The notes below the pieces were generated by a model. It ran no database searches. It saw nothing but the letters and a program-made list of their open reading frames with translations, and had not been told where the DNA came from. Below are positions 3,935 through 44,728 of a stretch of 64,000 nucleotides of DNA, piece after piece (the stretch's first letter is position 1; every line of letters starts with the position of its first letter). Made by a program: the position numbers and the translations under genes. The stretch comes from Sphingomonas sp. MA1305 (GTDB lineage Bacteria; Pseudomonadota; Alphaproteobacteria; Sphingomonadales; Sphingomonadaceae). The stretch covers positions 372,001-436,000 of the forward strand of contig NZ_RCVT01000002.1 in the NCBI RefSeq assembly GCF_016107325.1, written 5' to 3'.

Positions 3935-3953
3935 CGCTGGCCTTCGCTTTCGC

Positions 3954-7683: not shown

Positions 7684-7699
7684 CGTCGGGAGAATGGCA

Positions 7700-9748: not shown

Positions 9749-9801
9749 TCAGCGCGTCCGGCGATCGCGCCTGATGCCACTCGCACCGCGATCAGCTTCG
9801 G

Positions 9802-11996: not shown

Positions 11997-12274
11997 CGAT
12001 CCGCGTGTAGCGACAGCACCGCCTGCTGACGAGGGCCGATCGGGGTCGCGCGCGGCCGCAACACGCCGACGATCGCCCGAGCGGTACGTATTGGAACCGA
12101 TCGAAGTCATCCCGACGTGCTTGAACAGCGCAATGATCCCGTCCGCTGCGGCGGTCGGAATGCCAAACCGGGCCAGGGGCGCCGTGGTCGCTCCGCCACC
12201 CGTGGGCGACACGTCCGGATCGCTCACCGGCCAGTCGCCGCCGAGGGACTTAGCGAGCTTGCTACGCTCGTAAT

Positions 12275-15297: not shown

Positions 15298-15366
15298 GCG
15301 TCTGGAGGCCGCATCCCGGTCGCTGCTGTTATTCTCGCCCTGATGCTTAGACTGAGAGGAGACGAT

Positions 15367-20640: not shown

Positions 20641-20719
20641 GGAAAATCCCCGCTTGGCACGAATGTCGATGCAGGGATGGATGGGCGCGGAAAAACCGCT
20701 ACCCGGTTTGCAAAAAAAC

Positions 20720-26729: not shown

Positions 26730-26739
26730 CTCTGGATCC

Positions 26740-27774: not shown

Positions 27775-27859
27775 GTCTCATCCCTTATGCTGTCGTGGCG
27801 CATAGATGGACGCTCGCAGCGGGTCATAATAGGACGTGCACGAGCAGAGGATCTTTGCC

Positions 27860-28765
27860 ATGAACGCAAAGTTGACGGGCGGCACCGATCGCGCACGTGC
27901 ACTGGCGCTATTCGCGACCGTGGTGGAGCAGCGAAGCTTTTCGGCTGCCGGGCGCGTGCTCGACATGAGCCCATCGGCAGTGGCCCGCGCTGTCGACAGG
28001 ATCGAGGCCCGCCTTGGCGTGCGCCTGCTGCTGCGCTCGACCCGCGCGCTGTCGCTGACCGCCGAGGGGCAAAGCTACCTTCAGGCGGCGCGGCGTATCC
28101 TTGCCGACCTTGACGATGCAGAGCAGCTGATCGCCGATCAGGGTGCGCCGCGCGGCAGGCTGCGCGTTAGCGCCGCATTGTCGCACGGGCGACTCTGCGT
28201 CGTGCCGCTGCTCGGCCGTTTCGTGGAGCTGTACCCCGACATCGTCGTCGACATCGCCCTGTCCGACACGCTGGTCGACCTTGCGGCGGGCCAGGCTGAT
28301 GTGGCGGTGCGCTTCGGTCCGCTTCCCGACAGCGCGCTGACCGCGCGCAAGTTGGGCGAAACCCGTCGCGTGATCATCGCATCGCCAGCCTATCTCGCGC
28401 GGCATGGCGTGCCGGAGGAGCCGGAGGACTTGCTCCGGCACAATTGCCTGAACTTCAACTTCCGCCGCGCCGAGCCGGTCTGGCCGTTCCAACGCAACGG
28501 TGACGACTTCAGCCTGTCTGTACGCGGAAGCATCGAGGCCAATAACGGCGAGACATTGGCACAGCTTGCCACGGCCGGCGTCGGCATTGCCCGGGTGGGC
28601 GCGTTCAGCGCCGCTCACGAGGTGACGACAGGCGCGCTCGTGCCTCTTCTCGAAAGCTTCAATCCCGGCGACGTCGAGCAGATCCATGCGGTCTTCGTCG
28701 GTGGCAGCAACGTGCCCGCCCGAGTGCGGGTATTTGTGGACTTTCTGGCGCGCAATCTGCGTTAA
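27860..28765 (+). CDS. LysR-family transcriptional regulator
   Basis: A 301-residue regulator. The N-terminal winged HTH (ARALALFATVVEQRSFSAAGRVLDMSPSAVARAVDRIEARLG, about 11-53) is followed by a LysR substrate-binding domain (about 90-298, LRVSAALSHGRLCVVPLLGRF). The ATG at 27860 was chosen over the GTG at 27836 because the HTH spacing then fits the family. It is divergent from the aldo/keto reductase-MFS operon across an 85-bp gap, the classic arrangement for autoregulation and control of the neighbour. The effector is not known. Confidence 0.88.
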   Translation: MNAKLTGGTDRARALALFATVVEQRSFSAAGRVLDMSPSAVARAVDRIEARLGVRLLLRSTRALSLTAEGQSYLQAARRILADLDDAEQLIADQGAPRGRLRVSAALSHGRLCVVPLLGRFVELYPDIVVDIALSDTLVDLAAGQADVAVRFGPLPDSALTARKLGETRRVIIASPAYLARHGVPEEPEDLLRHNCLNFNFRRAEPVWPFQRNGDDFSLSVRGSIEANNGETLAQLATAGVGIARVGAFSAAHEVTTGALVPLLESFNPGDVEQIHAVFVGGSNVPARVRVFVDFLARNLR

Positions 28766-30622: not shown

Positions 30623-31183
30623 CTACGCGTGGCCGGACCGCGCCCGGCCGAACAGCGCGATCATCTCGCGATTGAACGCCGGAATGTCGTCCGGCTTGCG
30701 GCTGGTGACCAGATTGCCGTCCACTACCACCGGCTCGTCCACCCATTGTGCGCCCGCGTTTTCGACGTCGGTCTGGAGCGACGGCCAGGATGCGAGCCGC
30801 CGGCCGCGCAATCTGCCGGTTTCGATGAGCGTCCAGGGTCCGTGACAAATGGAAGCGACCGGTTTGCCGGCATCGATATAGGCCTGGGCGAAGACGACGG
30901 CGTCCTCGTTCATCCGCAACGTGTCGGGATTGATGACGCCGCCGGGCAGCAGGATCGCGTCGAAGGCGTCAGGACTAGCCTCGGCCAGCGGCAGGTCGAC
31001 GGGGAAGGTATCGCCCCAATCCGTCAACTGCCACGCCTTGACCTGATCGGTGTTCGGCGACACGAGCCGGGTGTCAGCGCCGGCCGCGTCGAGCGCCTTG
31101 CGCGGTTCGGTCATCTCGACCTGTTCGAAGCCATCCGTCACCAGGATCGCGACCTTCATGCCCTTCAGCGTGTCGTCCGGCAT
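30623..31183 (-). CDS. DJ-1/PfpI family protein (type 1 glutamine amidotransferase-like)
   Basis: A 186-residue protein of the PfpI group. The nucleophile-elbow cysteine is in VASICHGPW, after the acidic residue and LLPGGVINPDTLR loop expected for PfpI/YhbO-like enzymes. The opening is VAILVTDGFEQVEMTEPRKAL. Such proteins act in protein or DNA deglycation and stress survival, although the reaction is debated. The ATG at 31183 follows AGGAGA with good spacing. It lies in a minus-strand cassette of stress genes, 45 bp after the monooxygenase-like gene. Confidence 0.88.
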   Translation of the reverse strand: MPDDTLKGMKVAILVTDGFEQVEMTEPRKALDAAGADTRLVSPNTDQVKAWQLTDWGDTFPVDLPLAEASPDAFDAILLPGGVINPDTLRMNEDAVVFAQAYIDAGKPVASICHGPWTLIETGRLRGRRLASWPSLQTDVENAGAQWVDEPVVVDGNLVTSRKPDDIPAFNREMIALFGRARSGHA

Positions 31184-31228
31184 TTTCCATCTCCTATGAT
31201 TAGGTTACGCGGCGGCGGGGACGTGCGC

Positions 31229-31537
31229 TTAGGTCGGCGCCTTCTCCGCGACGACATCGAGCTCTTCGATGCTGGGCGTTTCGAAAAGCACGCCTGTATT
31301 CTCAGTCAGCGCGGTCGCGACCGCACCCGACAGGTGGGCCTGGCGCCCGTCATCGTCAGGAAAGGCATCGAAAATCCCGAACGACGAGGGACCGAACTGA
31401 AGACCGAACCACCTGACTGTCTTAGGCTCCCCGTCGACGATCGACTGGCCCCGGTTCAGAAAGTCGCGAACCTCATCCTCCCTGCCGGGCAATGCTTCGA
31501 GGCGAACCAGAAGTGCCCTGCTGACCTGCGTCGCCAT
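31229..31537 (-). CDS. Antibiotic-biosynthesis-monooxygenase-like (ABM) small protein
   Basis: A 102-residue dimeric alpha+beta-barrel-type protein. The pattern LLVRLEALPGREDEVRDFLNRG, then TVRWFGLQFGPSSFGIFDAF, and a final ELDVVAEK strand, is that of putative ABM-domain enzymes with no assigned substrate. The ATG at 31537 is supported by GGAGA seven bases upstream; the in-frame ATG at 31558 is not. It sits inside the alcohol dehydrogenase/PfpI cassette and is probably co-transcribed. Confidence 0.75.
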   Translation of the reverse strand: MATQVSRALLVRLEALPGREDEVRDFLNRGQSIVDGEPKTVRWFGLQFGPSSFGIFDAFPDDDGRQAHLSGAVATALTENTGVLFETPSIEELDVVAEKAPT

Positions 31538-31590
31538 TGTGAGTCTCCGTTGTTTCACCGGTATCGTGAAGACATTGGCCCGCGGCGGCC

Positions 31591-32754
31591 CTAGGGCGCG
31601 AACACCGCGCGCAGGCAGCCGTCCTCCTTGTGCTTGAACATGTGATAGCCGGTCGGGCTTTCCTCGAGCGAGAAGCGGTGCGTAGCCAGCGCCGCGGGCT
31701 TCAGTTCGCCGCGTTGCGCATGTTCGAGCAGCCGCGGGACATAGGCCTGGCCGTGTTGCTGCGCGGTGCGCACGGTCACCCCCTTGTTCATCAGCAGCCC
31801 GAGCGGAAACTTATCCATCAGCCCGTAAACACCGAGGATTGACAACGTGCCGCCCTTGCGCACGGCGAGCATCGCCTGGCGCAACGCCGTGCCGCGGTCC
31901 GTTTCCATATACAGCGCCTGTTTCACCCGGTCATAGGCGCCCTGAAGTCCGGTGCCCGCCGCCTCCATGCCAACGGCATCGATGCACGCGTCAGGGCCGC
32001 GCCCGCCGGTCAATTCCTTCAACGCATCGACCGCGTCCACTTTGGTGAAGTCGATCGGGATCGCGCCGAAGGACTCAGCCTTGGCGAGCCGTTCGGGATA
32101 TTGGTCGATGGCGATCACGCGTTCGGCGCCGAGGATCATCGCGCTCTGCTGCGCCATCAGGCCGACGCCGCCGCAGCCCCAGACCGCGATCACGTCGCCG
32201 CGCTGGATGTTGCAGAAGTCCGCGCCCATGAACCCCGTCGGAGCGGCGTCCGAAATGAACAGCGCGTCCTCGTCGGCCAAGCCATCGGGCACGAGGAAGC
32301 AGTCGGTATCGGCGAAGGGCACGCGGACATATTCGGCGTGGCTGCCCGCATAGCCGCCAAAGGCGTGCGAATAGGCGTAGATGCCCGCCGTCGGATAGCC
32401 GAGCAGAGGCTCCTGCAGCTCCGGCTTGGGATGGCTGGTGTCGCACAGCGAATAGAGGTCGTGCGCGCAATACCAGCACTGCCCGCAGGCGATGAACGAG
32501 GGGGCGACGACGCGATCGCCGCGCTGCACCCTGGTCACGTCGCGCCCAACATCGACGATCTCGCCCATGAACTCGTGCCCGAGGACGTCGCCCTCGCGCA
32601 TCGTCGGGATCAGGCCGTCGATGAGATGCAGGTCCGACCCGCAGGTGGTGGTCAGGCGGACCTTGAGGATCACGTCCTTCGGGTTGAGGATTTCGGGGTC
32701 GGCCACCGTCTCGACCCGCAGATCATTGATGCCGTTCCAGCAGAGTGCGCGCAT
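31591..32754 (-). CDS. Zinc-dependent alcohol dehydrogenase, formaldehyde-dehydrogenase-like
   Basis: A 387-residue medium-chain dehydrogenase. Catalytic zinc ligands are C38 (TTCGSDLH) and H60-E61 (LGHEFMGE). The structural zinc cluster is C90, C93, C96 and C104. The coenzyme loop is VWGCGGVGLMA and the C-terminal part GCLRAVFAP. The length and inserts (DSDLH-type start, long GYPTAGIYAYSHAFGGYAGSHAEYVR) match the glutathione-independent formaldehyde dehydrogenase-like group. The true substrate is untested. A paralogue of nearly the same design lies 1.1 kb upstream in the same unit. AGGAG precedes the ATG. Confidence 0.88.
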   Translation of the reverse strand: MRALCWNGINDLRVETVADPEILNPKDVILKVRLTTTCGSDLHLIDGLIPTMREGDVLGHEFMGEIVDVGRDVTRVQRGDRVVAPSFIACGQCWYCAHDLYSLCDTSHPKPELQEPLLGYPTAGIYAYSHAFGGYAGSHAEYVRVPFADTDCFLVPDGLADEDALFISDAAPTGFMGADFCNIQRGDVIAVWGCGGVGLMAQQSAMILGAERVIAIDQYPERLAKAESFGAIPIDFTKVDAVDALKELTGGRGPDACIDAVGMEAAGTGLQGAYDRVKQALYMETDRGTALRQAMLAVRKGGTLSILGVYGLMDKFPLGLLMNKGVTVRTAQQHGQAYVPRLLEHAQRGELKPAALATHRFSLEESPTGYHMFKHKEDGCLRAVFAP

Positions 32755-32765
32755 CGGCCTGGCTC

Positions 32766-33281
32766 CTAGCGGTCGGTGCCGCCGCGGCGGGCGGCGGGCT
32801 GGGGTTCGGTGGTCGGAATCTCGCCGGTCAGGGCGAGCGCGCGAAACTTGTAGAGCGCCTTGCGCACGATCTCGGCGGGAGCGATGTGGAAGAGCTTGCC
32901 GATCGCCGCTCCGACGGCCCCGCCGGGAGGATCGAAGTGCACGTCCAGGTGGAGCTCGGTGCCGCGGTCGCCCGGTGCCGGCCGGAAGACCAGCGATCCG
33001 ATATTCGGCATGTCAGCGCCATTCACGGCAGACCATCGAATATCGCTCGAGTTCGGGTCGGCGACCTTGGTCTGCCACCGATACTCGCCGCCTGCCGGCC
33101 CGCGCGCGACCCAGTCGGCCGTGCGATCGTCGAGCGGGGTCACGTCGGCGAAATGCGTCCAGATGCGAGATTGTGTAGCGGGATCGAGCCAGAGCGGGCG
33201 GAGCTCGTCGGCGGGTCTGCCGATCGTCACCGCCGCACGGGCGGAACCGTCGAGTTCCGCTTCTGCGGCGGGGGCGCTCAT
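32766..33281 (-). CDS. SRPBCC/START-type protein (polyketide cyclase/dehydrase-like)
   Basis: A 171-residue soluble protein of the SRPBCC fold. Typical features are the N-terminal strand ARAAVTIGRPADELRPLWLD, the middle strands ADWVARGPAGGEYRWQTKV and IRWSAVNG, and the long C-terminal helix PAEIVRKALYKFRALALTGEIP. The same wording occurs in proteins encoded beside zinc alcohol dehydrogenases in sphingomonads. The ligand is unknown. Its ATG overlaps the stop of the upstream membrane-protein gene (ATGA), so translation is coupled. The tail is Pro/Arg-rich and probably disordered. Confidence 0.78.
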   Translation of the reverse strand: MSAPAAEAELDGSARAAVTIGRPADELRPLWLDPATQSRIWTHFADVTPLDDRTADWVARGPAGGEYRWQTKVADPNSSDIRWSAVNGADMPNIGSLVFRPAPGDRGTELHLDVHFDPPGGAVGAAIGKLFHIAPAEIVRKALYKFRALALTGEIPTTEPQPAARRGGTDR

Positions 33282-33865
33282 GACGCGACCACCGGCAGCG
33301 CGGCTGCGACCGTGCCTTCGGCGCGATAATCGGGTGGAATGTCGAAGTCCTTGCGCGCGAGACCGCGCGACGCCTGAGCGCCTCGCGGCAGGCCCGACCG
33401 ATCGAAATAATCGCGCGCGCTGCCCGACGAGCGACGGTGCGCGGCCTTTACGCCGGTATACGCAGCCACGTCGAGCAAGGTGATGCCGAGGACCAGGGCG
33501 GTGGCGATCGCGGCATTGTGGCGCTTGGGGTTGTCACGCCCCAGCGCCGTGGCGAGCGTCGCGAGGTCGAGCGCATCGCCGCCGATGCGCGCGCCCAGCC
33601 CGATTGGCTTGTCGACCGACAGCGTGGGCACCGCGCTCGCCAGTTCGCGCGCGCCATAGGCGCGGATCAGCCCCTCCTTGCCCTCGAGGCCGAGGGTGCG
33701 GGCAAGCCGCCCCGGTGCCACCAGCTCGGTGACGCCGAGCCCGATGGAGAACCAGCCCAGCGCGCGAGACAGACGGTCGGCGCCGCTCAAGGAGCTCGGC
33801 CCCTTGCGCTCGACGCGAGGGTCGCCCTCGGACCGGGCGACGCCGGTGATGTTGGTGAGTGACAT
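33278..33865 (-). CDS. Membrane protein of unknown function in the alcohol dehydrogenase cassette
   Basis: A 195-residue protein with hydrophobic stretches near 34-55 (ALGWFSIGLGVTELVAPGRLA), 72-84 and 112-140 (AAIATALVLGITLLDVAAYTG). A basic, Pro-containing tail follows. I do not recognise a named family; similar proteins accompany SRPBCC and zinc alcohol dehydrogenase genes, which suggests a shared process at the membrane. Its stop overlaps the start of the SRPBCC gene, and 12 bp separate it from the upstream dehydrogenase. Function unknown. Confidence 0.75.
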   Translation of the reverse strand: MSLTNITGVARSEGDPRVERKGPSSLSGADRLSRALGWFSIGLGVTELVAPGRLARTLGLEGKEGLIRAYGARELASAVPTLSVDKPIGLGARIGGDALDLATLATALGRDNPKRHNAAIATALVLGITLLDVAAYTGVKAAHRRSSGSARDYFDRSGLPRGAQASRGLARKDFDIPPDYRAEGTVAAALPVVAS

Positions 33866-33877
33866 GGCAAGCGTCCT

Positions 33878-35053
33878 TCAGGGCTGGAGCATGACCTTGA
33901 TGCAGCCATCCGCCTTGTCGCGGAACGTCGCATACATCTCGGGACCTTTGGACAGGTCGACCTTGTGGGTGATCACGAACGAGGGATCGATCTGCCCGTC
34001 CTCGATCCGGCGCAGCAGATCGCCGGTCCAGCGGGGCACGTGCGCCTGCGCCATGCGGAAGGTCAGGCCCTTGTTCATCGCCTGTCCCATCGGGATCTTG
34101 TCGACCAGGCCCAGATAGACGCCGATGATCGAGATGACGCCGCCGGGCCGGCAGACATAGATCATCTCGCGCAGCACGTGCGGCCGGTCGTTCTCCGCCA
34201 TCAGCATCTGCTTGGCGCGGTCGAGCACCGTATCGGGCTGGCCGAAATTGACGTGGCTTTCGGTGCCGACCGCGTCGATGCACTTGTGCGGCCCCTTGCC
34301 GGCGGTCAGCTCGTTGAGCCGCTCGACGACGCTCTCCTCCTCAAAGTTGATCGTGATCGCCCCGGCCGCAGCCGCCATCGACAGGCGTTCGGGCAGATGA
34401 TCGATCGCCACCACCTGTTCGGCGCCAAGCAGGATCGCCGAGCGGATCGCCATCTGGCCCACCGGGCCGCAGCCCCAGATCGCGACCGTGTCGCCGGGCT
34501 GGATATCGGCCTGTACCGCGGCCTGCCAGCCGGTCGGCAAGATGTCCGACAGGAACAGCAGCTTCTCGTCCTCGATCCCGCCGGGCACCTTGATATGGGT
34601 CGTGTCGGCGAAGGGCACGCGCAGATATTCGGCCTGTCCGCCGGGATAGCCGCCGGTCAGATGGGTGTAGCCGAACAGCCCGGCGGTGGCATGGCCGAAC
34701 GCCTTGTCGCCCAGCTCCTTCTTGCGGTTGGTGCGCTCGCACACCGAGAAGTTGCCGCGGCGGCACTGGTCGCACTCGCCGCACTGGATGGTGAAGGGGA
34801 TGACGACCCGGTCGCCCTTCTTCAGGCTGCCCTTGGCGTCGCTGCCAACCTCGACCACCTCGCCCATGGTCTCGTGCCCCATGATGTCGCCGGGCAGCAT
34901 CGCGGGAACGAGGTTATGGAAAAGGTGGAGATCTGAACCACATATCGCGCAGCTGGTAACCTTGATTATGGCGTCGCGGGGATGCTCGATCACAGGGTCG
35001 GACACCGTGTCGTATCGGATGTCCTCCTTGCCGTGCCAGACTAAGGCTTTCAT
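33878..35053 (-). CDS. Zinc-dependent alcohol dehydrogenase (paralogue), first gene of the cassette
   Basis: A 391-residue medium-chain dehydrogenase. Catalytic zinc residues are C38 (CAICGSDLH) and H60-E61. The structural cluster is C91, C94, C97 and C105 (CGECDQCRRGNFSVC). The coenzyme loop is AIWGCGPVGQMA. The sequence design parallels the dehydrogenase at 31591, so the two arose by duplication. The ATG at 35053 fits the family start MKALVWHG; the longer upstream frame lacks similarity. It is divergent from the PAS-LuxR gene across about 137 bp carrying two palindromes. That regulator may control the cassette. Confidence 0.88.
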   Translation of the reverse strand: MKALVWHGKEDIRYDTVSDPVIEHPRDAIIKVTSCAICGSDLHLFHNLVPAMLPGDIMGHETMGEVVEVGSDAKGSLKKGDRVVIPFTIQCGECDQCRRGNFSVCERTNRKKELGDKAFGHATAGLFGYTHLTGGYPGGQAEYLRVPFADTTHIKVPGGIEDEKLLFLSDILPTGWQAAVQADIQPGDTVAIWGCGPVGQMAIRSAILLGAEQVVAIDHLPERLSMAAAAGAITINFEEESVVERLNELTAGKGPHKCIDAVGTESHVNFGQPDTVLDRAKQMLMAENDRPHVLREMIYVCRPGGVISIIGVYLGLVDKIPMGQAMNKGLTFRMAQAHVPRWTGDLLRRIEDGQIDPSFVITHKVDLSKGPEMYATFRDKADGCIKVMLQP

Positions 35054-35117
35054 GCCGGTCTCCTTGAAGGGATGCCGTCGAACTGCCGCATGGCTCGGTT
35101 CATCCCCATACGGACGA

Positions 35118-35127
35118 TCCCTAGGGA
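35118..35127. promoter_or_regulatory. Palindrome TCCCTAGGGA in the divergent intergenic region
   Basis: A perfect 10-bp palindrome lies midway between the dehydrogenase cassette (minus) and the PAS-LuxR gene (plus). Its half-sites TCCCTA and TAGGGA recur as an inverted repeat at 37453-37467 in front of the Crp/Fnr gene. It may be an operator; the binding protein is unknown. Confidence 0.5.
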
Positions 35128-35148
35128 ACCTTACCCAGCCGAAAGAGC

Positions 35149-35166
35149 TTGCCGGCACGCCGGCAA
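35149..35166. promoter_or_regulatory. Inverted repeat directly before the PAS-LuxR start
   Basis: TTGCCGGC, spacer AC, GCCGGCAA: a perfect 8+8 inverted repeat. A further TGCCGGCA lies at 35181-35188 next to the ATG. It is well placed to be an operator for autoregulation, or to form an RNA hairpin that hides the ribosome site of the gene. The in-frame TTG at 35149 falls inside it, which argues against that codon as the start. Confidence 0.55.
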
Positions 35167-35190: not shown

Positions 35191-37455
35191 ATGCCGCAAG
35201 ATCGGCTGTCTAACGAAATCGCACTCGAATCAGCGATCTTGCGAGAGGTCGAGCGAGCGCTACGGGACGAGCGCCTGCTGCTCGCCTCGGTCCTCGAGAA
35301 TCTCCCGCTTGGCATCGGCGTCTATGACGCCGACGGCAATGTCACCCTCTCCAACCGATGCCTTCGGGCTTATGGGCATCTCGACCGCCTGCCGTCGCGC
35401 CAGCCGGCTGAAGCCCGCCGATGGCGCGCTTACGACGCCGATGGCCGGCCGGTACAGCCTGGCGACTACCCAGGCTCGCGCGCGCTGCGTGGGGAGCGCG
35501 TGATGCCCGGCACCGACTTCCTCTACGATCCCGGTAATGCGCCGGAACGCTGGATGCGGATCAGCGCCGTACCCTTCCATCGCGAGAACGCCGACCATGC
35601 AGAGGCGATCGTGGTGGTGCAGGATGTCGATGATTTGAAGCGCGCCGGCGAGGAGATCGAGGTGGCAGCCGCGAAACTCGCGAGCCAGTCCCGCTTCGTG
35701 GAAGCGACACTGTCCTCCATCCCGGATTATGTCTACGCCTTCGATGCCGAGCGGAGGTTCGTCTATGCCAACCCGGTCATGCTGGGCCTGTTCGGCCTTA
35801 CCAGTGCCGAAATGTTGGGGCGGACCTTCGCCGATCTCGATTATCCGACCGCCCTGGCAGCCCACCTCAACGATCAAATCGACCGGATCTTCAGGGACGC
35901 CGTGACGATCGAAGACGAGGTATTCTACGAGAGCCCCACCGGTCACGCTGCCTATTTCAGCTATCTGTGGGGACCGGTCCGCAACGAGGAGGGCACCGTC
36001 GAACTCGTCGTCGGCGTATCGCGCGACACCAGCGAGCGGCGCGCCTTCGAGGAGAAGGTCAAGCGCAACGAGGCGCGGTTGCGGGCCGCCACCGAGCTGG
36101 CGGACTTGGGGATCTACGCTTGGGATCCCGTCACCGGAGCGCTCGACTGGGATGACCGCTTACGCGCGATGTGGGGCCTTCCGCCTGGCTCGCCGGTCGA
36201 CACGGCGGTGTACGAGAATGGAATCCATCCCGAAGACCTGCCGCGGGTGCGCGATGCGATCGCCGCTTGCGTCGACCCGGCGGGCGATGGTCGCTATTCG
36301 ATCGAATATCGGGTGATCGGACGCGACGACGGCGTCCTGCGCCACATCGCCACCTTCGGCCGCACCACATTCGAGCACGGCCGCCCCACAGCCTTCATCG
36401 GCGCGGCTGTCGACGTGTCCAAGCAGCGGCGGAACGAGGCCGCCGTGCGGGCGAGCGAGGCGCAGTTCCGCGGGTTCGCGGAGAACAGCAGCAACCTGCT
36501 GTGGATCGTCGATCCCGCCGCAGGCCAGATCGTCTATCGCAGCGCCGCCTTCGAGCGCATATGGGGTATCCCCTGTGACGAGGCGCCGACCACGGTTGAG
36601 GCATGGATGGAAAATGTCCACGCTGACGATCGATCCGCCGTTGCCCGGGCGATGGAAACGGTCACGGCCGGCGAGGTCGTACAACATGAGTATCGCATTG
36701 TCAGGCCGAGGGATGGCGGGGTGCGGTGGCTACGCGACACGAGTTTCCCGATCCGGGATGACGACGGTGCGATCATGCGCATCGGCGGCATCGCCGAGAA
36801 TTTGACGCAGGAGGATAGCCGGCAGGTCTATATCATCAGCGCCAGGGCATCGGAGGCGCGTCGCCTGGCCCGGTTGGTACGAACGATCGACTATCAGGCC
36901 CGCCTCTTCGACAGCGCGGACGCCTTTCTCGACATCGCTCCGGTTTTGGCGCCCGGTTGCGTTCTGGTCGACCTTCGCAAAGCGCGGGAGGACGGCCTTA
37001 CTGTTCCGCGCGAACTCAAGGCGAGGTCGATCGCATTGCCGGCCGTTGCGCTGGACGAACCGGAGGCTGGTGCAGAAGCAGCGGTCGCCGCGATGAAGGC
37101 CGGGGCGATCGACTACGTCCTGTGCGAAAAGGAGGAGGTGCTGCGAGAGACGTTGGCCACGGCCCTGGCGGAGTGCCACGCGACAACAGGGTCGTCGTCG
37201 CGGGACGAAGCAGTCAATGCCCAAATCGGACGATTGACGCCACGCGAGCGTGAGGTGCTCGTCGGATTGATCGACGGCGGGACGAACAAGGTCATTGCGC
37301 AAACGCTCGGCATCAGTCCGCGGACCGTCGAACTGCATCGTGCACAGGTGATGAGCAAGCTGGGAGCAGGCAGCCTCACCGAACTCGGCCAGATCGCGCT
37401 CGCCGCCGGGCTGTCGTCGTCAAAGGCGGCGGGGAAGGCCCGGAAGCCTACCTAG
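35191..37455 (+). CDS. Multi-PAS protein fused to degenerate receiver and LuxR-type DNA-binding domain
   Basis: A 754-residue regulator with no histidine kinase part. Four PAS domains are visible at about 28-145 (PLGIGVYDADGNVTLSNR), 165-285 (IPDYVYAFDAERRFVYAN), 295-415 (LGIYAWDPVTGALDWDD) and 420-535 (NLLWIVDPAAGQIVYRS). A FixJ-like receiver (about 538-660) keeps the phosphosite-like Asp (VLVDLRKAREDG) but lacks the N-terminal acidic pair, which reads IISARASEA. A LuxR HTH follows (about 675-740, LTPREREVLVGLIDGGTNKVIAQTLGISPRTVELHR). It looks like a one-component sensor-regulator. The ATG at 35191 has GGGAG ten bases upstream. The divergent dehydrogenase cassette and the following Crp/Fnr gene are candidate targets. 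Confidence 0.85.
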   Translation: MPQDRLSNEIALESAILREVERALRDERLLLASVLENLPLGIGVYDADGNVTLSNRCLRAYGHLDRLPSRQPAEARRWRAYDADGRPVQPGDYPGSRALRGERVMPGTDFLYDPGNAPERWMRISAVPFHRENADHAEAIVVVQDVDDLKRAGEEIEVAAAKLASQSRFVEATLSSIPDYVYAFDAERRFVYANPVMLGLFGLTSAEMLGRTFADLDYPTALAAHLNDQIDRIFRDAVTIEDEVFYESPTGHAAYFSYLWGPVRNEEGTVELVVGVSRDTSERRAFEEKVKRNEARLRAATELADLGIYAWDPVTGALDWDDRLRAMWGLPPGSPVDTAVYENGIHPEDLPRVRDAIAACVDPAGDGRYSIEYRVIGRDDGVLRHIATFGRTTFEHGRPTAFIGAAVDVSKQRRNEAAVRASEAQFRGFAENSSNLLWIVDPAAGQIVYRSAAFERIWGIPCDEAPTTVEAWMENVHADDRSAVARAMETVTAGEVVQHEYRIVRPRDGGVRWLRDTSFPIRDDDGAIMRIGGIAENLTQEDSRQVYIISARASEARRLARLVRTIDYQARLFDSADAFLDIAPVLAPGCVLVDLRKAREDGLTVPRELKARSIALPAVALDEPEAGAEAAVAAMKAGAIDYVLCEKEEVLRETLATALAECHATTGSSSRDEAVNAQIGRLTPREREVLVGLIDGGTNKVIAQTLGISPRTVELHRAQVMSKLGAGSLTELGQIALAAGLSSSKAAGKARKPT

Positions 37456-37467
37456 GGACTATCCCTA
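37453..37467. promoter_or_regulatory. Inverted repeat TAGGGA-CTA-TCCCTA before the Crp/Fnr gene
   Basis: A perfect 6+6 inverted repeat with a 3-nt spacer begins at the stop codon of the PAS-LuxR gene and lies 54 bp before the Crp/Fnr start. It uses the same half-site as the palindrome at 35118-35127, so both may bind the same regulator. Confidence 0.5.
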
Positions 37468-37521
37468 TGCCGCCGTCGCCCGCGGCGCACGAGCATAGCC
37501 TCACCTAAATGGAGTGACGCT

Positions 37522-38286
37522 ATGACACATCTCCAGACCGAAACTCCGCTCACCGGCGCGTTCAACCGGGCAGCCCTTCGCACCAAGAAATTGAGCAGGG
37601 CTCGAGATGAGGATGTCTCGAATCTGATCATCAGGGCCTTTTCTCGCTATGACATCGGCAATCGGTACGATGTGTCGAATATTGTCAATCACGTGACCCA
37701 CATCCATGAGGTTGAGACCAAGCACCCGTTTCCGGCACGTCCGTCCTCCAGAACCGCGCACGTCCTTGTCACTGGATGGGGCTTCCGGTCGCAGATCTTG
37801 CGGAACGGGGCGAGACAGATAACCGATGTGATCATCCCAGGAGATTTTTGCGTCATCGCCGACCTGGAGCGAGAGACCTCATCCTATGTCGAAGCCTGTG
37901 GTCCGGCTCGCGTTGCCGCGCTGGACACGGACGCGATGTCGGATCGCTCTCGCAGTCTGGTCGAGCATGCGCGGCGGGCGCAGCAAGGTGAAGTGCTATT
38001 TCGCCTCCGCGCCCGCCTGGTCAGCCTTGGGCGCCGCAATGCGCGGGAGCGCCTGGCCTATCTGGTGGCCGAAACGCACGCACGTCTCGGGGCTATGGGG
38101 CTCACGCAGAACGATACGTTCGATTGGCCGTTCACGCAGGAACAGCTCGGCGATATGCTCGGTCTGACGCCCGTCCATATCAATCGGGTGCTGGGCCGGC
38201 TGCGTGACGAAGGCCTGCTCGTCGTAAGAGGCCGCCAGATAGTGATCCTCGATCTGGCCAATCTGCATCGGGTCGGAGAATTTTGA
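37522..38286 (+). CDS. Crp/Fnr-family transcriptional regulator
   Basis: A 254-residue regulator. A cyclic-nucleotide-binding-like beta barrel spans about 60-150 (HVLVTGWGFRSQILRNGARQITDVIIPGDF). A dimer helix is followed by the Crp-type HTH (about 200-235, FDWPFTQEQLGDMLGLTPVHINRVLGRLRDEG). There is no N-terminal cysteine cluster as in oxygen-sensing Fnr. The ATG has GGAG eight bases upstream. It lies just behind the PAS-LuxR gene and may be under its control. The signal is unknown. Confidence 0.87.
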   Translation: MTHLQTETPLTGAFNRAALRTKKLSRARDEDVSNLIIRAFSRYDIGNRYDVSNIVNHVTHIHEVETKHPFPARPSSRTAHVLVTGWGFRSQILRNGARQITDVIIPGDFCVIADLERETSSYVEACGPARVAALDTDAMSDRSRSLVEHARRAQQGEVLFRLRARLVSLGRRNARERLAYLVAETHARLGAMGLTQNDTFDWPFTQEQLGDMLGLTPVHINRVLGRLRDEGLLVVRGRQIVILDLANLHRVGEF

Positions 38287-38430
38287 GCCTCCAGCCTTCC
38301 GAGCGGCGGTCCTTCGTTCACACACCCTAAAGGCCGATCCTACTTTTCTTTCCATCATCGGTTTACCCCACCGGCGCGATCTCAACTGCTCACGTCAGTG
38401 TGATGGAGACGGGTGGTGGGCCAATCTTCG

Positions 38431-38628
38431 ATGGATCCTGCCTTTCTTGAAGTTCGTCCTTGGAACGAGGGTCGATTGGCCGGTGCCAAACGCGCCCTGA
38501 AACAACAGCAGGTCTGAGCCATTCGCTTGTGGCTCGACCAGCATAGGCGTTTGCGCGATCGAACCCTGTTCAACTTCGCCATCGACAGCAAGCTACGCGG
38601 CTGTGACGTGGTCAGGACGCGGATTGGG
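38431..38628 (+). pseudogene. Tyrosine-recombinase/integrase N-terminal fragment with in-frame stop
   Basis: Translation from ATG 38431 gives a site-specific-integrase N-terminus: LEVRPWNEGRLAGAKRALKQ, then AIRLWLDQHRRLRDRTLFNFAIDSKLRGCDVV. The IDSKLRGCDVV block is a hallmark of a small integrase family common in sphingomonads. TGA at 38515-38517 replaces the usual Trp codon (V-W-A-I), and similarity ends near 38628, so the catalytic R...HxxR...Y part is missing. The flanks (38287-38430 and 38629-38865) show no other gene. Confidence 0.8.
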
Positions 38629-38865
38629 GAAGCAGCAGACGGTGCGTTCCAGCGATGTTTTGGCGGCTTTTGGCTGTTATGCAGCCTTTGACGTGTATTT
38701 CTGCATAGCACGAATTGCCTCCTGCCCGAAGACTGAACCATTCTCGGATAAGGTCGACCCGTGTCTCCGACTATCATCGGATACGCCTTCCGCTTGGCCC
38801 TAAATGGCAAAAAGTCATCGCCGGTATCCAGCGGACGTGAGGTCAACCCGGCGAGGCCCGGCATG

Positions 38866-39759
38866 CTAGATGCGCTCGCTGGCCATCCGATGCCTCAGCA
38901 TGTCAACGAACATTCTAGTCCGGACCGGCATGGCGGCGTTCTCCAGCCACAAGGCGTGAACCGGAATGGGGGGCGGTTCATGATCGGGGAGCAGAACCTC
39001 CAGCAGGCCCTGGTCGATCTCCGATCGGACCTGCCAGAGCGGTGCCAGACCCACGCCGGCACCCTGGAGGACGGCGGCATTGGCACCGGCGGCATCGTTG
39101 CAGCGGAAGCGTCCCTTGACGGCGACCTTCGTCACCGCAGCCCCCTCCGTCACGGGCCAGCTATCTCCCTCCGGTCCGAACGTCCGCACCACGCAGCTAT
39201 GCTCTCGAAGGTCGGCCGGCGTCGATGGGCGGCCATGGCGCGCGAGGTACTGCGGTGCCGCGACCACTACGCGCCTGAGTTTGCCGAGCAGGCGCGACTT
39301 CAGCGACGAGGAGGCGGGTTCGCCGATCCGCACGACGACGTCTAGCCTGTGTTCGATCAGGTTCATCAGGGCGTCGGACAGGATCAGATCGACCTCCACG
39401 CCGGGATACCGGTCGACGAAGGCGGTCGTCGTGGGAACCACATAACGTGGAGCGAACTGGACCGAGGCGCCCACCCGGAACAGACCGGCGATCTCCGACG
39501 CGCCGCGCATCACATCGCTTCTGGCCTCATCGATCTCACGCAAAGCGATCCGGATGCGTTCGTAGAAGGCCGTCCCGGCCGGTGTCGGCTGGAGCCGGCG
39601 GGTCGTCCGGTGGACCAGCTTCGCGCCTATCTCCGCTTCAAGACCGATCAGCGATCGGCTTACGGTCTGAAGCGAGCAATCGAGTCGGCGCGCCGCGGCG
39701 GTGAGGCTGCCCGCCTCGATGATCGCGACGAACGTGCGATAGTGCTCGAGTCCCGCCAT
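38866..39759 (-). CDS. LysR-family transcriptional regulator
   Basis: A 297-residue LysR protein: winged HTH at about 1-60 (LEHYRTFVAIIEAGSLTAAARRLDCSLQTVSRSLIGLEAEIG), a linker helix, and a substrate-binding domain at about 90-290 (LFRVGASVQFAPRYVVPTTTAFVDRYPGV). It is divergent from the MFS gene at 39860 (100-bp gap) and is the probable controller of that transporter. It lies between two decayed integrase genes, so it may be cargo of a lost genomic island. Confidence 0.87.
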   Translation of the reverse strand: MAGLEHYRTFVAIIEAGSLTAAARRLDCSLQTVSRSLIGLEAEIGAKLVHRTTRRLQPTPAGTAFYERIRIALREIDEARSDVMRGASEIAGLFRVGASVQFAPRYVVPTTTAFVDRYPGVEVDLILSDALMNLIEHRLDVVVRIGEPASSSLKSRLLGKLRRVVVAAPQYLARHGRPSTPADLREHSCVVRTFGPEGDSWPVTEGAAVTKVAVKGRFRCNDAAGANAAVLQGAGVGLAPLWQVRSEIDQGLLEVLLPDHEPPPIPVHALWLENAAMPVRTRMFVDMLRHRMASERI

Positions 39760-39859
39760 TCTCAGCGTGTCCGTGATTCTGCTTCCCGTTCATCTCCCAT
39801 TATCGCCATCCACGATCAAGATAATGTGCTGCCCTCTGATGTTAGACGGAGGAACGGCG

Positions 39860-41092
39860 TTGAGAACTGGAGCTGCTCGCGAACCCGGATCTGCCAGCCA
39901 AGGCGCCGGGTCGCCGCCAACCGCGCTCTTCGCGCTGGCGGTCGGCGTCGTGGTGCTGGCGCTCTACGCCTCGCAGCCCCTGGTCGGGATCATCGGACCT
40001 GAGCTTGGTCTGTCGCCCGTCACGTCCGGCCTCGCCACCACGTTGACGCTGCTCGGCTACGCGACGGGCCTGTTTCTGCTGGTCCCGCTGACCGATCTCG
40101 TTGAAAACCGACAGCTCATCCTTACGACGCTCGCCGCCAATGTCTGTGCTCTGCTGATGCTGGCGGCGGCGCCGACGGCGGCTGCCTTCCTGATCGCGTC
40201 CTTCCTCGTCGGACTGTCGACGAGCGCGATCCAGATGCTCGTGCCGGTCGCTGCATCGCTGAGTTCCGAAAGCAGCCGAGGACGGACAGTCGGCAACGTG
40301 ATGAGCGGCCTGATGCTCGGCATCCTCTTCTCACGCCCACTCGCCAGCCTCGTAACGGAGGCCGCCGGCTGGCGGTCGCTCTATACCGCCCTGGGTGTCG
40401 CCGTCGCCGCACTGGCGCTCGGGCTTGCCCGCTTTATTCCAAGAATACGGCCCAACGGCCAAACGGGCTATCCGCAACTGATCGGATCGCTGGGATCAAT
40501 CCTCCGGGAGGAGCCGACACTCAGGCAGCGCGCGGCGACGCAGGCCATGTGCATGGGCGCCTTCGGCGTGTTCTGGACGGCTATCGCGCTCCGCCTCGCC
40601 CAGCCGCCGATCGCACTGGGCCAGACCGGGATCGCTCTTTTCGCCTTGGCGGGCGCCGCCGGGGCGATCATCTCTCCGATCGCCGGGCGCGCCGGGGATC
40701 GGGGCGCGACGCGGCCCGCGACAATGCTGGCTCATGCCGCGGTCGCCACCGCCATGATCCTCGCTTATTTCGGAGGTGAGGTTTTCGCGGGCAGCCGGGA
40801 CACGTCGCTCGCGTTCCTTCTGAGCGCGGCGATCGTCCTCGATCTTGGCGTCATCGCTGACCAAACGCTTGGACGACGTGCGATCAATCTCATTCGGCCT
40901 GAGGCACGCGGCCGGATCAACGGCCTCTTCACCGGTCTGTTCTTCCTCGGCGGTGCCGCCGGATCCGCCCTGTCGGGCGTTGTCTGGAGTGCCTGGGGCT
41001 GGCGCGGCGTCTGCGCGACGGGGCTGGCGTTCGGGATCGGCGCGATCGTCATCTTCCTGACGAGACGTCGTGTTTTCAAGGCTGGATCATGA
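39860..41092 (+). CDS. MFS transporter
   Basis: A 410-residue inner-membrane transporter with about 12 hydrophobic segments (ALFALAVGVVVLALYASQPLVGIIG is TM1). It has an MFS loop LTDLVENRQLILTTLAANV after TM2 and a second-half loop SPIAGRAGDRGATRPATMLAH. The TTG at 39860 is favoured because GGAGG at 39848-39852 lies seven bases before it; the in-frame ATG at 39839 lacks one. The plan suggests a YnfM-like or drug-exporting group. Substrate unknown. It is paired with a divergent LysR gene within the integrase-flanked region. Confidence 0.85.
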   Translation: MRTGAAREPGSASQGAGSPPTALFALAVGVVVLALYASQPLVGIIGPELGLSPVTSGLATTLTLLGYATGLFLLVPLTDLVENRQLILTTLAANVCALLMLAAAPTAAAFLIASFLVGLSTSAIQMLVPVAASLSSESSRGRTVGNVMSGLMLGILFSRPLASLVTEAAGWRSLYTALGVAVAALALGLARFIPRIRPNGQTGYPQLIGSLGSILREEPTLRQRAATQAMCMGAFGVFWTAIALRLAQPPIALGQTGIALFALAGAAGAIISPIAGRAGDRGATRPATMLAHAAVATAMILAYFGGEVFAGSRDTSLAFLLSAAIVLDLGVIADQTLGRRAINLIRPEARGRINGLFTGLFFLGGAAGSALSGVVWSAWGWRGVCATGLAFGIGAIVIFLTRRRVFKAGS

Positions 41093-41199
41093 GCAGTTCG
41101 GGCGTTCGGAACGGAGTGTGACAGCCGGTCTGTCTCTACACCGTTCGCAACCATGCGCGCACAGCCTGTACGTCGGCGCAGGCCATGTTCGCGGCAGCA

Positions 41200-41773
41200 G
41201 CATCAAAATGATGCGCCTCGCAACGCCAATGCCGCCCTTCGTCCTGCCGCCACGTCCTTTCCGCTTCGCTGCCGAACGACCCGCGGCGATGTCGGCCTGA
41301 AGGTTTTCAATGTCGCGGCGCGTCAGGCCGGCGACCAGCCGATGACCGATGATCGGCGGACGTGAGTATCGATGCGGCTTCGGTCCATCTTCAGCGTCGT
41401 CGCTTCGATCGGGCGCCGGCTGCAGCCGAGGATGCGGCACGCCGCCGCTTCCGTCAGATGCCGTCGCATACGTCCGAGACGGTCATGCCCGCGCGAGCTG
41501 CGTGCCGGTCCTCGGACGGATCTTCCCCGTCGGCGACCGCCGCGAGTTTCCGGCGGGCGATGTCTCGCGCCCCGTCCCGCGCCAGAGCCCCGTATTGCCC
41601 CAGCACCAGCCGACGGGGCGGCCCTCCGGGTTGCGGTACTGGATCAGGAAGCTCTTCGTGCCGGACGGCTTCACGCGAACGCCGAAGCCTTTCAACTCGC
41701 TGTCCCAGGCGAACACGTCAGCCTTATCGCTCGGCTTCAGCGCGTCGACGACGCGCTTGGTGATCTTGGCCAT
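41200..41773 (-). pseudogene. P4-type tyrosine integrase remnant (DUF4102 arm-binding end), frameshifted
   Basis: From ATG 41773, preceded by GAGGAG, the strand encodes the arm-binding domain of a P4-like integrase: AKITKRVVDALKPSDKADVF, then ELKGFGVRVKPSGTKSFLIQ and YRNPEGR. After a frameshift comes GARDIARRKLAAVADGEDPS. In a further frame follows the core-binding part, IIGHRLVAGLTRRDIENLQA, then GKGRGGRTKGGIG-like sequence to about 41200. At least two frameshifts and stops break it, and the catalytic domain is absent. It lies about 210 bp from a tRNA-Gly 3' half, as expected for an integrase beside its att site. Confidence 0.82.
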
Positions 41774-41985
41774 GCTCAACTCCTCAAATTTCTCGATGTC
41801 CTGCTCGTTCTCCGATCTGCTTCCCCGGCGGTCGGGGAAACTTGGGGGAAGCAGAAGGGCGGAAATCGGCGGGTCGGCGCAGGAGATGGAGGGGATGGTC
41901 TGCGTCCAGATTATCCTTGTCGTGGAAGGGGCTTAGCGGGTCGTAACGTGCAAATGGAAACCTTGGCGAAAAGTGCCCGGTGTCT

Positions 41986-42030
41986 TTGCCAAGCTGGGGG
42001 TCGAGGGATCGAATCCCTTCGCCCGCTCCA
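41986..42030 (+). other. 3' half of tRNA-Gly(GCC), island attachment-site remnant
   Basis: The segment begins with the anticodon loop TTGCCAA (GCC at 41988-41990) and continues with anticodon-stem half GCTGG, variable loop GGGTC and T stem GAGGG/CCCTT around loop ATCGAAT. It ends with acceptor half CGCCCGC and TCCA, with CCA encoded (end 42030). The 5' half needed for a tRNA is not preserved: the bases before the loop do not pair with GCTGG, and only a loose resemblance (GCGGG at 41936) is seen. It is best read as the att duplication left by an integrase-driven element rather than a working tRNA gene. Confidence 0.75.
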
Positions 42031-42240
42031 GTCTTCCACACAATGTGATGCGATCGGCGGTCCTGCGGGGTCGCCTTTCCGCCTACGTTCGTGACGCCGG
42101 GCAGACGGCATCACGCCGATGCAGGTCGTCCGTGTCCGGCGGCGGACGGCCGCCCGCGAAATAGCGGACCCGCAGGTTCAGCACGGTTCTGCGACGACGG
42201 TTCGGCCGCCGCCTCGCTGCGCTGCTTAGATGCCGCCCGT

Positions 42241-43137
42241 CTAGGTGGTCGTCGGCTCCTCGGCCGGGGCAGCCGCCGCGGGCGCGGTCGCTGCCGGTGG
42301 CGTCACGGCCGGTGCGGCGGGGACGCTGAGGGCCGTGGTCTCGATCCGGTCGAGCGCCTGGCGCGCGCCGATATAGCGGTCCGCCGCGGCGAGCCAATTG
42401 CCGGCGTGGCGAGCGCCGGGCAGGCGCAGCACCTCGGCCCGCGCCGCCTCGACCTGCCCCGCATCAAGGAAGTGGCGCGCGCGCGACAGTCGCTCGACCG
42501 GCCGCGACGACGGCGTGTCGGCGCGGCGCAGCACGATCAGACCGCCCAGTTCCTGGCGCAGGCTGGTCCACCAGTCGCCGCCGCTGACCGTCTGGATGTC
42601 GGGCGCGATCGCCTCCAGCCCCTGGCGCAGGCTTTCCAGCGTCGCCGACTGGCGGCCGGCGGCGATCACGTCGGCGACCGCCTTGGGTTGGGTCGCGCCA
42701 AAGCGGTTGCGCAATTGCTCCTCGAGATAGCCGAGCGGCGTGCCGCGATCGAGCGCGCGGCGCGCCGCCGCGACGACCAGCAGCCCCTCGGCGCGGGTCG
42801 CCTGCGTGCCCGCCGCCGCGGCATCGGCACCGATCGTCGCGGTGCGCGTCTCGAGCGCCGCAAGCTGCGCCGCCAGCGCCGCCTCACGCGTGGCGAGCAC
42901 CGTCGCATCGGGCGCCTCGCCATTGGCATTGAGCGGCTGCGCCGGCGAGAAGCCGGTCGGCTCGACCGGGGTCGGCGAGGGCGCTGCGGCAGGCGTGCCG
43001 TGCAGCCAGCTGATCCGCTTCATCGCCAATGCCGTCAGTCCGACGCCCGCGACAAAGGCCAACAGGGTCAGGACGATGATCAGACCGGCTCGTGGGGCGC
43101 GCGGGCGCGTCGCGACGATCGGTTCAAATTCGCTCAT
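42241..43137 (-). CDS. Mitofilin/HemX-like inner-membrane protein behind hemCD
   Basis: A 298-residue protein: a short cytoplasmic N-terminus, one membrane span near 18-40 (AGLIIVLTLLAFVAGVGLTALAM), a Pro/Ala linker, a helical periplasmic segment (about 80-125) and a C-terminal helical part (about 130-265, ARRALDRGTPLGYLEEQLRNRFG). Ala/Pro repeats close it. The order hemC-hemD-this gene is shared with alphaproteobacteria, where the third gene encodes a mitofilin (Mic60)-like or HemX-like protein. A role in membrane architecture or tetrapyrrole synthesis is proposed only by family. ATG overlaps hemD (ATGA). Confidence 0.75.
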   Translation of the reverse strand: MSEFEPIVATRPRAPRAGLIIVLTLLAFVAGVGLTALAMKRISWLHGTPAAAPSPTPVEPTGFSPAQPLNANGEAPDATVLATREAALAAQLAALETRTATIGADAAAAGTQATRAEGLLVVAAARRALDRGTPLGYLEEQLRNRFGATQPKAVADVIAAGRQSATLESLRQGLEAIAPDIQTVSGGDWWTSLRQELGGLIVLRRADTPSSRPVERLSRARHFLDAGQVEAARAEVLRLPGARHAGNWLAAADRYIGARQALDRIETTALSVPAAPAVTPPAATAPAAAAPAEEPTTT

Positions 43138-43817
43138 GGCCCTTTATCCCCGCCCGGTCCGGCACGGTCAATCGCCTGCGCAAGAACACACAGTTTCCCG
43201 TCGTCGGGCACGGCGCTCGCCGCCGCCCTCCCCCACCCCGCGCCGGCGGCGGCGAGCACGGCCGGGCTGATCGCGGCGAGCGCGACGGCGCCGCGTCGGG
43301 CCGGCGGGATCAAGGCGGCGACCCGAGACGCGGCGCGGGCGGAATGGAGCAGCACGACGGCGCCATCCGCGGCGGCGGCGAAGGCGCGGGCGTCGACCGG
43401 CACCGCATCACTGGCATAGACGACGATCGTCGGGCATCCCGTCGTGACATGATCGCGGCCGGCGAGGTGCAGCGGCCGGATCAGCCCGCCGGCCCGGCCC
43501 GCCGCGAGCGCCGCGACCGCATCCCCCTCCCCCATCGCCGCGACGCGCAGCCCCGCCGCGCGCGCCGCCGCCGCGCTCGCCGGGCCGACCGCGATCACCG
43601 GCAGGGCGGCGAGGCGCGCGAGACCGGGACCGGCGTGGCGGATCGCCTGCGCGCTGGTCACCAGCAGCGAATCGAAGTCCGCGGGGTCCGGCGGCAGCCA
43701 GCCGACCGGCGCGACCGCGAACAGCGGCCAGCCCTGCGCCTCCACGCCCAGCGTGCGCAGTCGCGCGACGGTCGCCGCATTGCCGGGCTCGGGCCGCACG
43801 ACCAGGGCGCGCGTCAT
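43134..43817 (-). CDS. hemD: Uroporphyrinogen-III synthase
   Basis: A 227-residue enzyme that cyclises hydroxymethylbilane with ring-D inversion. Family hallmarks are weak, as usual for HemD, but present: ALVVRPEPGNAATVARLRTLGVEA at the start, FDSLLVTSAQAIRHAG, LPVIAVGPASAAAARAAG and VVLLHSARAASRVAALI. It is coupled to hemC upstream (ATG at 43817 overlaps the hemC stop) and overlaps the mitofilin-like gene downstream. Position and motif order give the assignment more weight than single residues. Confidence 0.85.
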   Translation of the reverse strand: MTRALVVRPEPGNAATVARLRTLGVEAQGWPLFAVAPVGWLPPDPADFDSLLVTSAQAIRHAGPGLARLAALPVIAVGPASAAAARAAGLRVAAMGEGDAVAALAAGRAGGLIRPLHLAGRDHVTTGCPTIVVYASDAVPVDARAFAAAADGAVVLLHSARAASRVAALIPPARRGAVALAAISPAVLAAAGAGWGRAAASAVPDDGKLCVLAQAIDRAGPGGDKGP

Positions 43818-44728
43818 CCGCCGAACAGCCGCCGCACCGCCGCGGGCGCCCGCGCGAGCAGATCGGTGGCGAGCGCCCGCGCCACCGCCTCGCCATCCGG
43901 CCCCTCCGCGCTGCCCTCGACATGGGCGCTGCCATCCTCGGCGAGCAGCTCGGCACGCAGGCTGAGCGTCTCGCCCGACACCGCGGCGAGCGCCGCCACC
44001 GGCGAATGGCAGTCCGCCTGCAGCGCCGCGAGCAGGGCGCGTTCCGCACGCACGCAGCGGCTGGTCAGCGGGTCGTCGATCGCCGCCACCCAGCCATGCG
44101 CCCGCGCATCGTCGGCGCGCACCTCGATACCGACGGCGCCCTGCGCCGGCGCGGGCAGCATGTCGCCGGTCGGGATCGCCGCCCCGACCGCGTCGCGGCC
44201 GAGCCGATCGAGCCCGGCGGCGGCGAGCAGGGTGGCGTCCGCCTCGCCCGCCGCCAGCTTGGCGAGCCGCGTGTCGACGTTGCCGCGGAACAGCACGATG
44301 CGCAGATCCGGCCGCAACCGCCGCAGTTGCGCGCCGCGGCGCGGGCTGCTGGTGCCGACCACCGCCCCCTGCGGCAGCGCGGCGACGGTGGCGGCGCCGA
44401 TCAGCCGGTCGCGCACGTCGGCGCGCGGCAGCATCGCGGCAATGGCGATCGCCGCCGGACGGATCGTCTCGACATCCTTCATCGAATGGACGGCGGCGTC
44501 GATCTCGCCGGCAAGCAGCGCCCGGTCGAGCTCCTTGGTCCATAGCGCCTTGCCGCCAATTTCTGCCAGCGCGCGATCCTGCACGCGATCGCCGGTGGTG
44601 CGGATCACGACCAGCTCGACCGTATCGACCGGCCAGCCGTGCGCCGCGCACAGCGCATCGCGCACCATGTTCGCCTGGGTCAGCGCCAGCGGCGATCCGC
44701 GCGTGCCGAGCTTGAAGGGGACGGTCAT
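43814..44728 (-). CDS. hemC: Hydroxymethylbilane synthase (porphobilinogen deaminase)
   Basis: A 304-residue cytosolic enzyme joining four porphobilinogen units. Hallmarks are LGTRGSPLALTQA (7-19), HSMKD with the catalytic D85, SSPRRGAQLRRLRPDL, RGNVDTRLAKL and the dipyrromethane-attaching C240 (LQADCHSPVAAL). The ATG at 44728 gives the normal length; the upstream in-frame extension comes from a repeat region. It heads the minus-strand hemC-hemD-mitofilin operon and diverges from tsaD. Confidence 0.95.
   Translation of the reverse strand: MTVPFKLGTRGSPLALTQANMVRDALCAAHGWPVDTVELVVIRTTGDRVQDRALAEIGGKALWTKELDRALLAGEIDAAVHSMKDVETIRPAAIAIAAMLPRADVRDRLIGAATVAALPQGAVVGTSSPRRGAQLRRLRPDLRIVLFRGNVDTRLAKLAAGEADATLLAAAGLDRLGRDAVGAAIPTGDMLPAPAQGAVGIEVRADDARAHGWVAAIDDPLTSRCVRAERALLAALQADCHSPVAALAAVSGETLSLRAELLAEDGSAHVEGSAEGPDGEAVARALATDLLARAPAAVRRLFGG

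Follow-up and report, generated by a model that had tools for sequence, protein, structure and literature searches.

The 64-kb window analyzed here (the whole stretch, C3:372001-436000; the genome comprises 4.04 Mb in 10 contigs) very probably harbors, at 41197-42079, the far end of a decayed and rearranged P4-type island that was once integrated at tRNA-Gly(GCC). An island end at tRNA-Gly is well supported at this position by a displaced fragment of the tRNA gene, a broken integrase beside it, an uninterrupted sister of that integrase in genome G239 and similar layouts in genomes G008, G015 and G218. The original prediction, made from the sequence of 38431-42030, had described these 3.6 kb as a decayed island bounded by integrase fragments, and upon direct inspection of 37400-43200 and its open reading frames (ORFs) all of the named parts were present, namely the start of an integrase with an in-frame TGA, a LysR/MFS gene pair, a frameshifted P4-type integrase and the 3' half of tRNA-Gly(GCC). 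Fossils of this kind are ordinary in bacterial genomes, and the present one is known in kind, decayed and rearranged. The features that carry this assignment are as follows.

41198..41359, minus strand: integrase remnant, internal piece between the Arm and catalytic domains, in a further open frame (85% over 54 amino acids to the open G239 integrase)
41499..41618, minus strand: integrase remnant, second half of Arm-DNA-bind_3 (PF13356 positions 44-81, E 7e-6; positions 43-82 in the whole-genome scan)
41621..41764, minus strand: integrase remnant, first half of Arm-DNA-bind_3 in a separate frame (PF13356 positions 1-40, E 1.1e-5)
41986..42030, plus strand: displaced 3' fragment of tRNA-Gly(GCC), nucleotides 31-75 (42/45 identical to the intact gene, 93%)
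42031..42079, plus strand: tail accompanying the fragment, with a terminator-like inverted repeat (similar tail 3' of the intact tRNA-Gly and of both G239 copies)

The tRNA-Gly(GCC) fragment and the broken integrase

The identity of 41986-42030 was established by comparison with the 3' 45 nucleotides of the intact tRNA-Gly(GCC), a check that the original prediction had proposed, and in a search of the genome itself the stretch matched nucleotides 31-75 of the gene at 93% (E 5.5e-13). Since ARAGORN found no tRNA gene within the window and an Rfam scan of 36000-44000 gave no match, 41986-42030 is a fragment. The anticodon of tRNA-Gly(GCC) occupies nucleotides 33-35, and the 5' end of the fragment therefore corresponds to the anticodon loop, which is one of the crossover classes named for tRNA-gene islands in PMC4383910. 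The only full-length copy found in this genome is located at C3:575879-575953 on the minus strand, 161.8 kb from the fragment on the same contig and in the opposite orientation. Fragment and tail up to 42079 align, inverted, with the intact gene and its tail at 86% identity over 87 columns, and within this genome as well as within G239 the intact gene and the fragment are followed by similar sequence. The hairpin in the tail was spotted by eye.

Similar tails are also expected of a gene duplicate, in which case the fragment would represent a decayed second native tRNA-Gly(GCC) gene and the adjacent integrase would be coincidental. We consider this origin extremely improbable. The 5' end of the fragment, at nucleotide 31, coincides with those of the displaced fragments in G008 (nucleotide 30), G218 (31), G239 (29) and G015 (26 and 29), each of which lies near an integrase. 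In addition, a search with the intact gene returned matches in all 61 genomes searched, 37 of them in the genus, and among the matches listed one full-length copy (nucleotides 1-75, 97-100%) was present in each of 33 of these 37, two full-length copies in none of the 33, and partial or weaker tRNA-Gly matches in the remaining four.

The integrase remnant is located approximately 0.2 kb to the left of the tRNA fragment. A whole-genome scan with PF13356 recovered the same two-frame split of the Arm domain beside the fragment on the minus strand, with no continuous match, and PF00589 gave no match at this remnant in the whole-genome scan; of the two parts of a P4-type integrase, Arm-DNA-bind_3 is thus present and the C-terminal catalytic domain was missing. 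With 41198-41359 as query, matches were obtained in 31 of 250 genus genomes, the closest being that in G239 and the next best, at 59-63%, those in G218 and G183. The G239 gene encodes an open integrase of 426 amino acids that matches both PF13356 (E 7.1e-17, 61.8 bits) and PF00589 (E 8e-11) and adjoins a tRNA-Gly fragment of its own (nucleotides 29-75, 100%). At the DNA level, 765 of 901 alignment columns (85%) are identical between G239 and 41197-42079 of the window, covering the integrase, the spacer, the tRNA fragment and the terminator-like tail. Because the alignment stops at 41197, inside the integrase gene, the window copy is classified from its sequence as a truncated remnant with more than one frameshift, which has lost its catalytic part and is predicted not to be a working enzyme. 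The sister element in G239 (L277:16206-19825, G239:C76) carries behind its integrase anti-phage genes similar to IetA (AAA ATPase) and IetS (subtilase), none of which were found here, and an ORF of 1552 amino acids without a Pfam or PADLOC match.

On the basis of these features, we propose that an island with a P4-type tyrosine integrase would have recombined its attP site with the 3' half of tRNA-Gly(GCC), from the anticodon loop to the 3' end. Integration would have rebuilt the tRNA and left the displaced 3' fragment next to the integrase gene, at the opposite end of the island. Later, the integrase would have been frameshifted and lost its catalytic part and the fragment would have gained substitutions, and a rearrangement comprising at least one inversion and relocation of a DUF72 gene would have parted the fragment from the intact tRNA.

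Comparable islands and the ordinary tRNA-Gly site

Layouts similar to that of the window recur in other genomes of the genus. In G008, the intact tRNA-Gly is followed by 28.4 kb, an open integrase of 404 amino acids and a perfect 46-nucleotide fragment in the orientation of the tRNA, and G015 contains two tRNA-Gly fragments with an integrase at each (open frames of 551 and 441 amino acids). In G218, the order is intact tRNA-Gly, 60 kb, a broken integrase, a 45-nucleotide fragment (nucleotides 31-75), DUF72, a hemX-like gene, hemC, tsaD and gpsA; the gene upstream of the intact tRNA, to which Pfam assigned no family, is presumably ImuA. The G008 and G015 integrases were recognized by 25-31% identity to the integrase of a tRNA-Thr island in the present genome. 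The displaced fragments of G008, G218, G239 and G015 each have an integrase at approximately 0.2-0.3 kb that points away from the fragment, as in the window, and the G239 element shares 85% DNA identity with it over integrase, spacer and fragment; the integrases of G239, G008 and G015 are open, whereas that of the window is broken. A tRNA-Gly fragment at the edge of a contig in G006 is ambiguous. The core of the original prediction, that a P4-type integrase element once terminated in a tRNA-Gly(GCC) 3' fragment and then decayed, was borne out, and tRNA-Gly(GCC) is confirmed as a recurrent integration site in a large genus resembling Sphingomonas. The resemblance is judged from plasmid matches, among them a catalase gene at 85.7% in Sphingomonas hankookensis. 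A literature search for tRNA-Gly integrase islands in Sphingomonas returned, judged by title, only work on other genera.

The present genome also contains an undamaged 20.4-kb island at tRNA-Thr(GGT) (C3:523382-543889), whose direct repeat is perfect over 58 bp and whose P4-type integrase (542415-543710, minus strand) is open and positive for both PF13356 and PF00589. The two elements have the same design, in which the direct repeat at the far end has the integrase next to it, and they differ in that the tRNA-Thr island retains an undamaged repeat (58 bp, 100%) and an open integrase. Islander-type tRNA-gene islands, as described in PMC4383910, likewise combine a tyrosine integrase, a displaced 3' tRNA fragment and an anticodon-loop crossover class; in the present genome, by comparison, the fragment and tRNA are inverted relative to each other, the integrase is predicted to be non-functional and a single border was identified. 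The fragment reaches the tRNA 3' end and lies outside a full tRNA gene (nucleotides 31-75, 93%), and the 161.8-kb distance falls within the 2-200 kb range of Islander, although much of the interval is core DNA. The integrase remnant sits on the side of the fragment facing away from the intact tRNA, and the interval contains the integrase of the tRNA-Thr island. According to PMC4383910, Islander discards fragment/tRNA pairs in opposite orientation. Standard island finders that require equal orientation would overlook such an end, which is still recognizable after breakage of the integrase and displacement of the tRNA. The gain is better annotation, and no new mechanism is shown.

In many relatives, the usual order around the site is FtsK-LON-thioredoxin-(DnaE2-ImuB-ImuA)-tRNA-Gly-DUF72-hemX-hemC-tsaD-gpsA, in which DUF72, hemC, tsaD, gpsA, the polymerase, thioredoxin, LON and FtsK were confirmed by Pfam. 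The chromosomal flank to the right of the fragment belongs to this region.

42241..43137, minus strand: hemX-like core gene adjoining hemC (present in 34/37 genus genomes searched)

The hemX-like gene has no Pfam or NCBIfam family and is named from its position only, and a search for the DUF72 gene recovered it from 20 of 23 genus genomes. Empty sites, which the original prediction had suggested looking for in related strains, were found in G021 and G001, where DUF72 starts approximately 0.12 kb past an island-free tRNA-Gly. In the present genome, the intact tRNA-Gly at 576 kb retains its upstream genes, and the hemX-like gene at 414 kb is inverted relative to both tRNA-Gly and DUF72. The DUF72 gene itself is located at C3:454678-455472, away from tRNA-Gly and the hemX-like gene, one or the other of which adjoins it in most relatives, and beside genes that we take from their translations to be rsmG, parA and parB. 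Among the 22 genus genomes in which a single contig carries both tRNA-Gly and the hemX-like gene, the usual arrangement was kept in 13 and lost in nine, including this one. Rearrangement around the tRNA-Gly site is thus common in the genus, and on this basis the present position most likely reflects a normal fragment that was moved. An island combined with a single inversion was insufficient, as the position of the relocated DUF72 gene does not fit. In G034:C3 (L043, L133), a separate break lies between DUF72 and the hemX-like gene, and sequence matching C3:467-480 kb of the present genome is split across its sides.

Several observations weigh against a former tRNA-Gly island end that was later displaced. 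Both Arm halves score slightly below the Pfam curated cut-off, and the fragment (plus) and tRNA (minus) fail the same-orientation rule of Islander. The fragment precedes the hemX-like gene here and genes for a short-chain dehydrogenase and a ferrochelatase in G239, not DUF72 as in G218 and G015. A rearrangement is therefore required, and self-comparison of 354 kb (C3:252001-606000) revealed no long inverted repeat at the breakpoints. G+C content was rejected as a marker of the border: it is 0.63-0.68 at 28-42 kb and 0.73-0.76 at 42-48 kb, and alone it draws no border because low values recur at 50-58 kb (0.68-0.70) and values elsewhere to the left of 28 kb reach up to 0.70-0.71.

Some of these observations would be explained if the tRNA fragment was the element's own attP copy, brought in by integration at a secondary, non-tRNA site, for which no inversion is needed. 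In both genomes of this integrase lineage, the present one and G239, the fragment lies apart from its usual neighbor DUF72, the homology between them ends approximately 49 nucleotides past the tRNA end and gives way to different flanks (hemX-like versus short-chain dehydrogenase and ferrochelatase), and in each of them the intact tRNA and the fragment carry similar tails. However, the lineage is represented by just two of the 250 genomes searched with the internal integrase piece at such similarity, the fragment starts at nucleotide 31 as in G218, where it holds the ordinary place, and in a genus in which nine of 22 genomes have lost the usual arrangement a displaced normal fragment is not unusual. 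We therefore regard secondary-site entry as unlikely. It is similarly doubtful that the lineage as such leaves a tRNA-Gly fragment and a terminator-like tail of approximately 49 nucleotides away from the native tRNA-DUF72 site, whether by secondary-site integration or by att copies that promote inversions at a near-origin locus. An island end at the native tRNA-Gly that was subsequently displaced thus remains our preferred explanation.

The LysR/MFS pair and the left recombinase fragment

To the left of the integrase remnant, the following features were identified.

38431..38631, plus strand: N-terminal remnant of a short tyrosine recombinase of approximately 210 amino acids (67 codons, one in-frame TGA)
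38866..39759, minus strand: LysR-family regulator, open (PF03466 E 6.1e-41, PF00126 E 6.8e-19)
39767..41092, plus strand: MFS transporter, open, start codon uncertain (PF07690 E 1.1e-26)

The transporter belongs to the MFS fold family and is accompanied by a divergent LysR gene, and its affinities are foreign. Matches at E 1e-60 or better were present in 38 of 121 genus genomes including this one, with the best other copy 45% identical, while the ten best loci outside the genus reached 61-66% and came from Methylobacterium, Bradyrhizobium, Telmatospirillum, Variovorax, Labrys, Ramlibacter and two metagenome-assembled genomes. In the best 80 of 329 stretches of the named genome collection with MFS relatives, a LysR gene in divergent orientation was sought within 400 bp of the MFS gene at more than 30% identity; it was found at 28 loci and at nine of the ten closest, the tenth exceeding the distance limit by one base; in eight of these nine the LysR protein is 57-61% identical. 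The pairs of Methylobacterium, Bradyrhizobium, Telmatospirillum and Labrys thus resemble that of the window in the transporter (61-66%), the regulator (57-61%) and the divergent layout. A drug-specific annotation was rejected, as NCBIfam drug-efflux models matched far below their cut-offs, and comparison of the transporter with PDB gave only two matches, both weak.

An intact, foreign and self-contained module is the simplest reading of the pair, which probably represents a laterally acquired, self-regulated, efflux-type module brought by the island or by a later insertion; efflux is a function predicted from the family. The suggestion of a possible efflux module left by the island stands for the intact, foreign pair with its predicted function, and is not supported for its membership in the island cargo. 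Because the pair begins approximately 0.1 kb past the truncation of the integrase, it need not be cargo of the tRNA-Gly island, and either the island or a later insertion may be its source. A related strain with the same pair and tRNA fragment but no integrase, which was proposed as the case that would speak against the island, was not encountered, as no other MFS protein exceeded 45% in the 121 genus genomes. A separate block at 25557-28765 comprises MFS, aldo-keto reductase and LysR genes and is 75-90% identical in the seven other genus genomes compared except G029; its place varies among genomes, the copy in G017 lying approximately 1.4 kb from the intact tRNA-Gly.

The fragment at 38431-38631 shares 76-85% identity with the N-terminal part of the nine full-length proteins that match it best in other genomes, G084 and G082 giving 85%; with its 67-residue translation as query, 21 of 61 genus genomes, among them the present one, yielded a match. 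The translation, with X at the stop, gave no Pfam or NCBIfam match; the 210-amino-acid homolog in G084 (L162) matches PF00589 (E 4.6e-21). The fragment represents a different, short recombinase type without the P4-type layout and there is no tRNA fragment near it, and for these reasons it does not bound the island. The proposal of one island between two integrases was accordingly not upheld, as nothing tested ties the left one to tRNA integration.

Extent of the foreign DNA and its surroundings

All of the listed parts fall within 3.6 kb and the LysR/MFS pair is foreign in affinity, as would be expected if the interval was one small island that entered at tRNA-Gly and then lost nearly everything except this pair. 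We find this very hard to sustain, given the recombinase type of the left fragment, which has no tRNA fragment nearby, and a search of C3:252001-414000 by ARAGORN and self-comparison that found no tRNA or second fragment. Moreover, in the eight genomes compared the DNA beside hemX includes no counterpart of most of 22-38 kb, and the foreign stretch therefore extends beyond 38431. When C3:252001-606000 was searched for a second border using tRNAs and self-repeats, the sole repeat partner of the fragment was the intact tRNA. The two tRNA copies cannot be the ends of one undisturbed element, being 161.8 kb apart in opposite orientation. Since the intact tRNA is distant and inverted and DUF72 has moved too, the 3.6 kb does not represent a complete island, and neither its other border nor the cargo it first carried can be defined; the claim that most of the cargo was lost is likewise not supported, as without a second border the loss cannot be measured.

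The left part of the window contains FecR/sigma factor/TonB-receptor clusters and a tryptophan halogenase (277-12482 and 18139-22197), followed by GH127 and alpha-L-fucosidase genes at 13189-16992. A DJ-1/PfpI gene and two zinc alcohol-dehydrogenase genes are located at 30623-35158, part of which is 78.9% identical to a Sphingobium plasmid.

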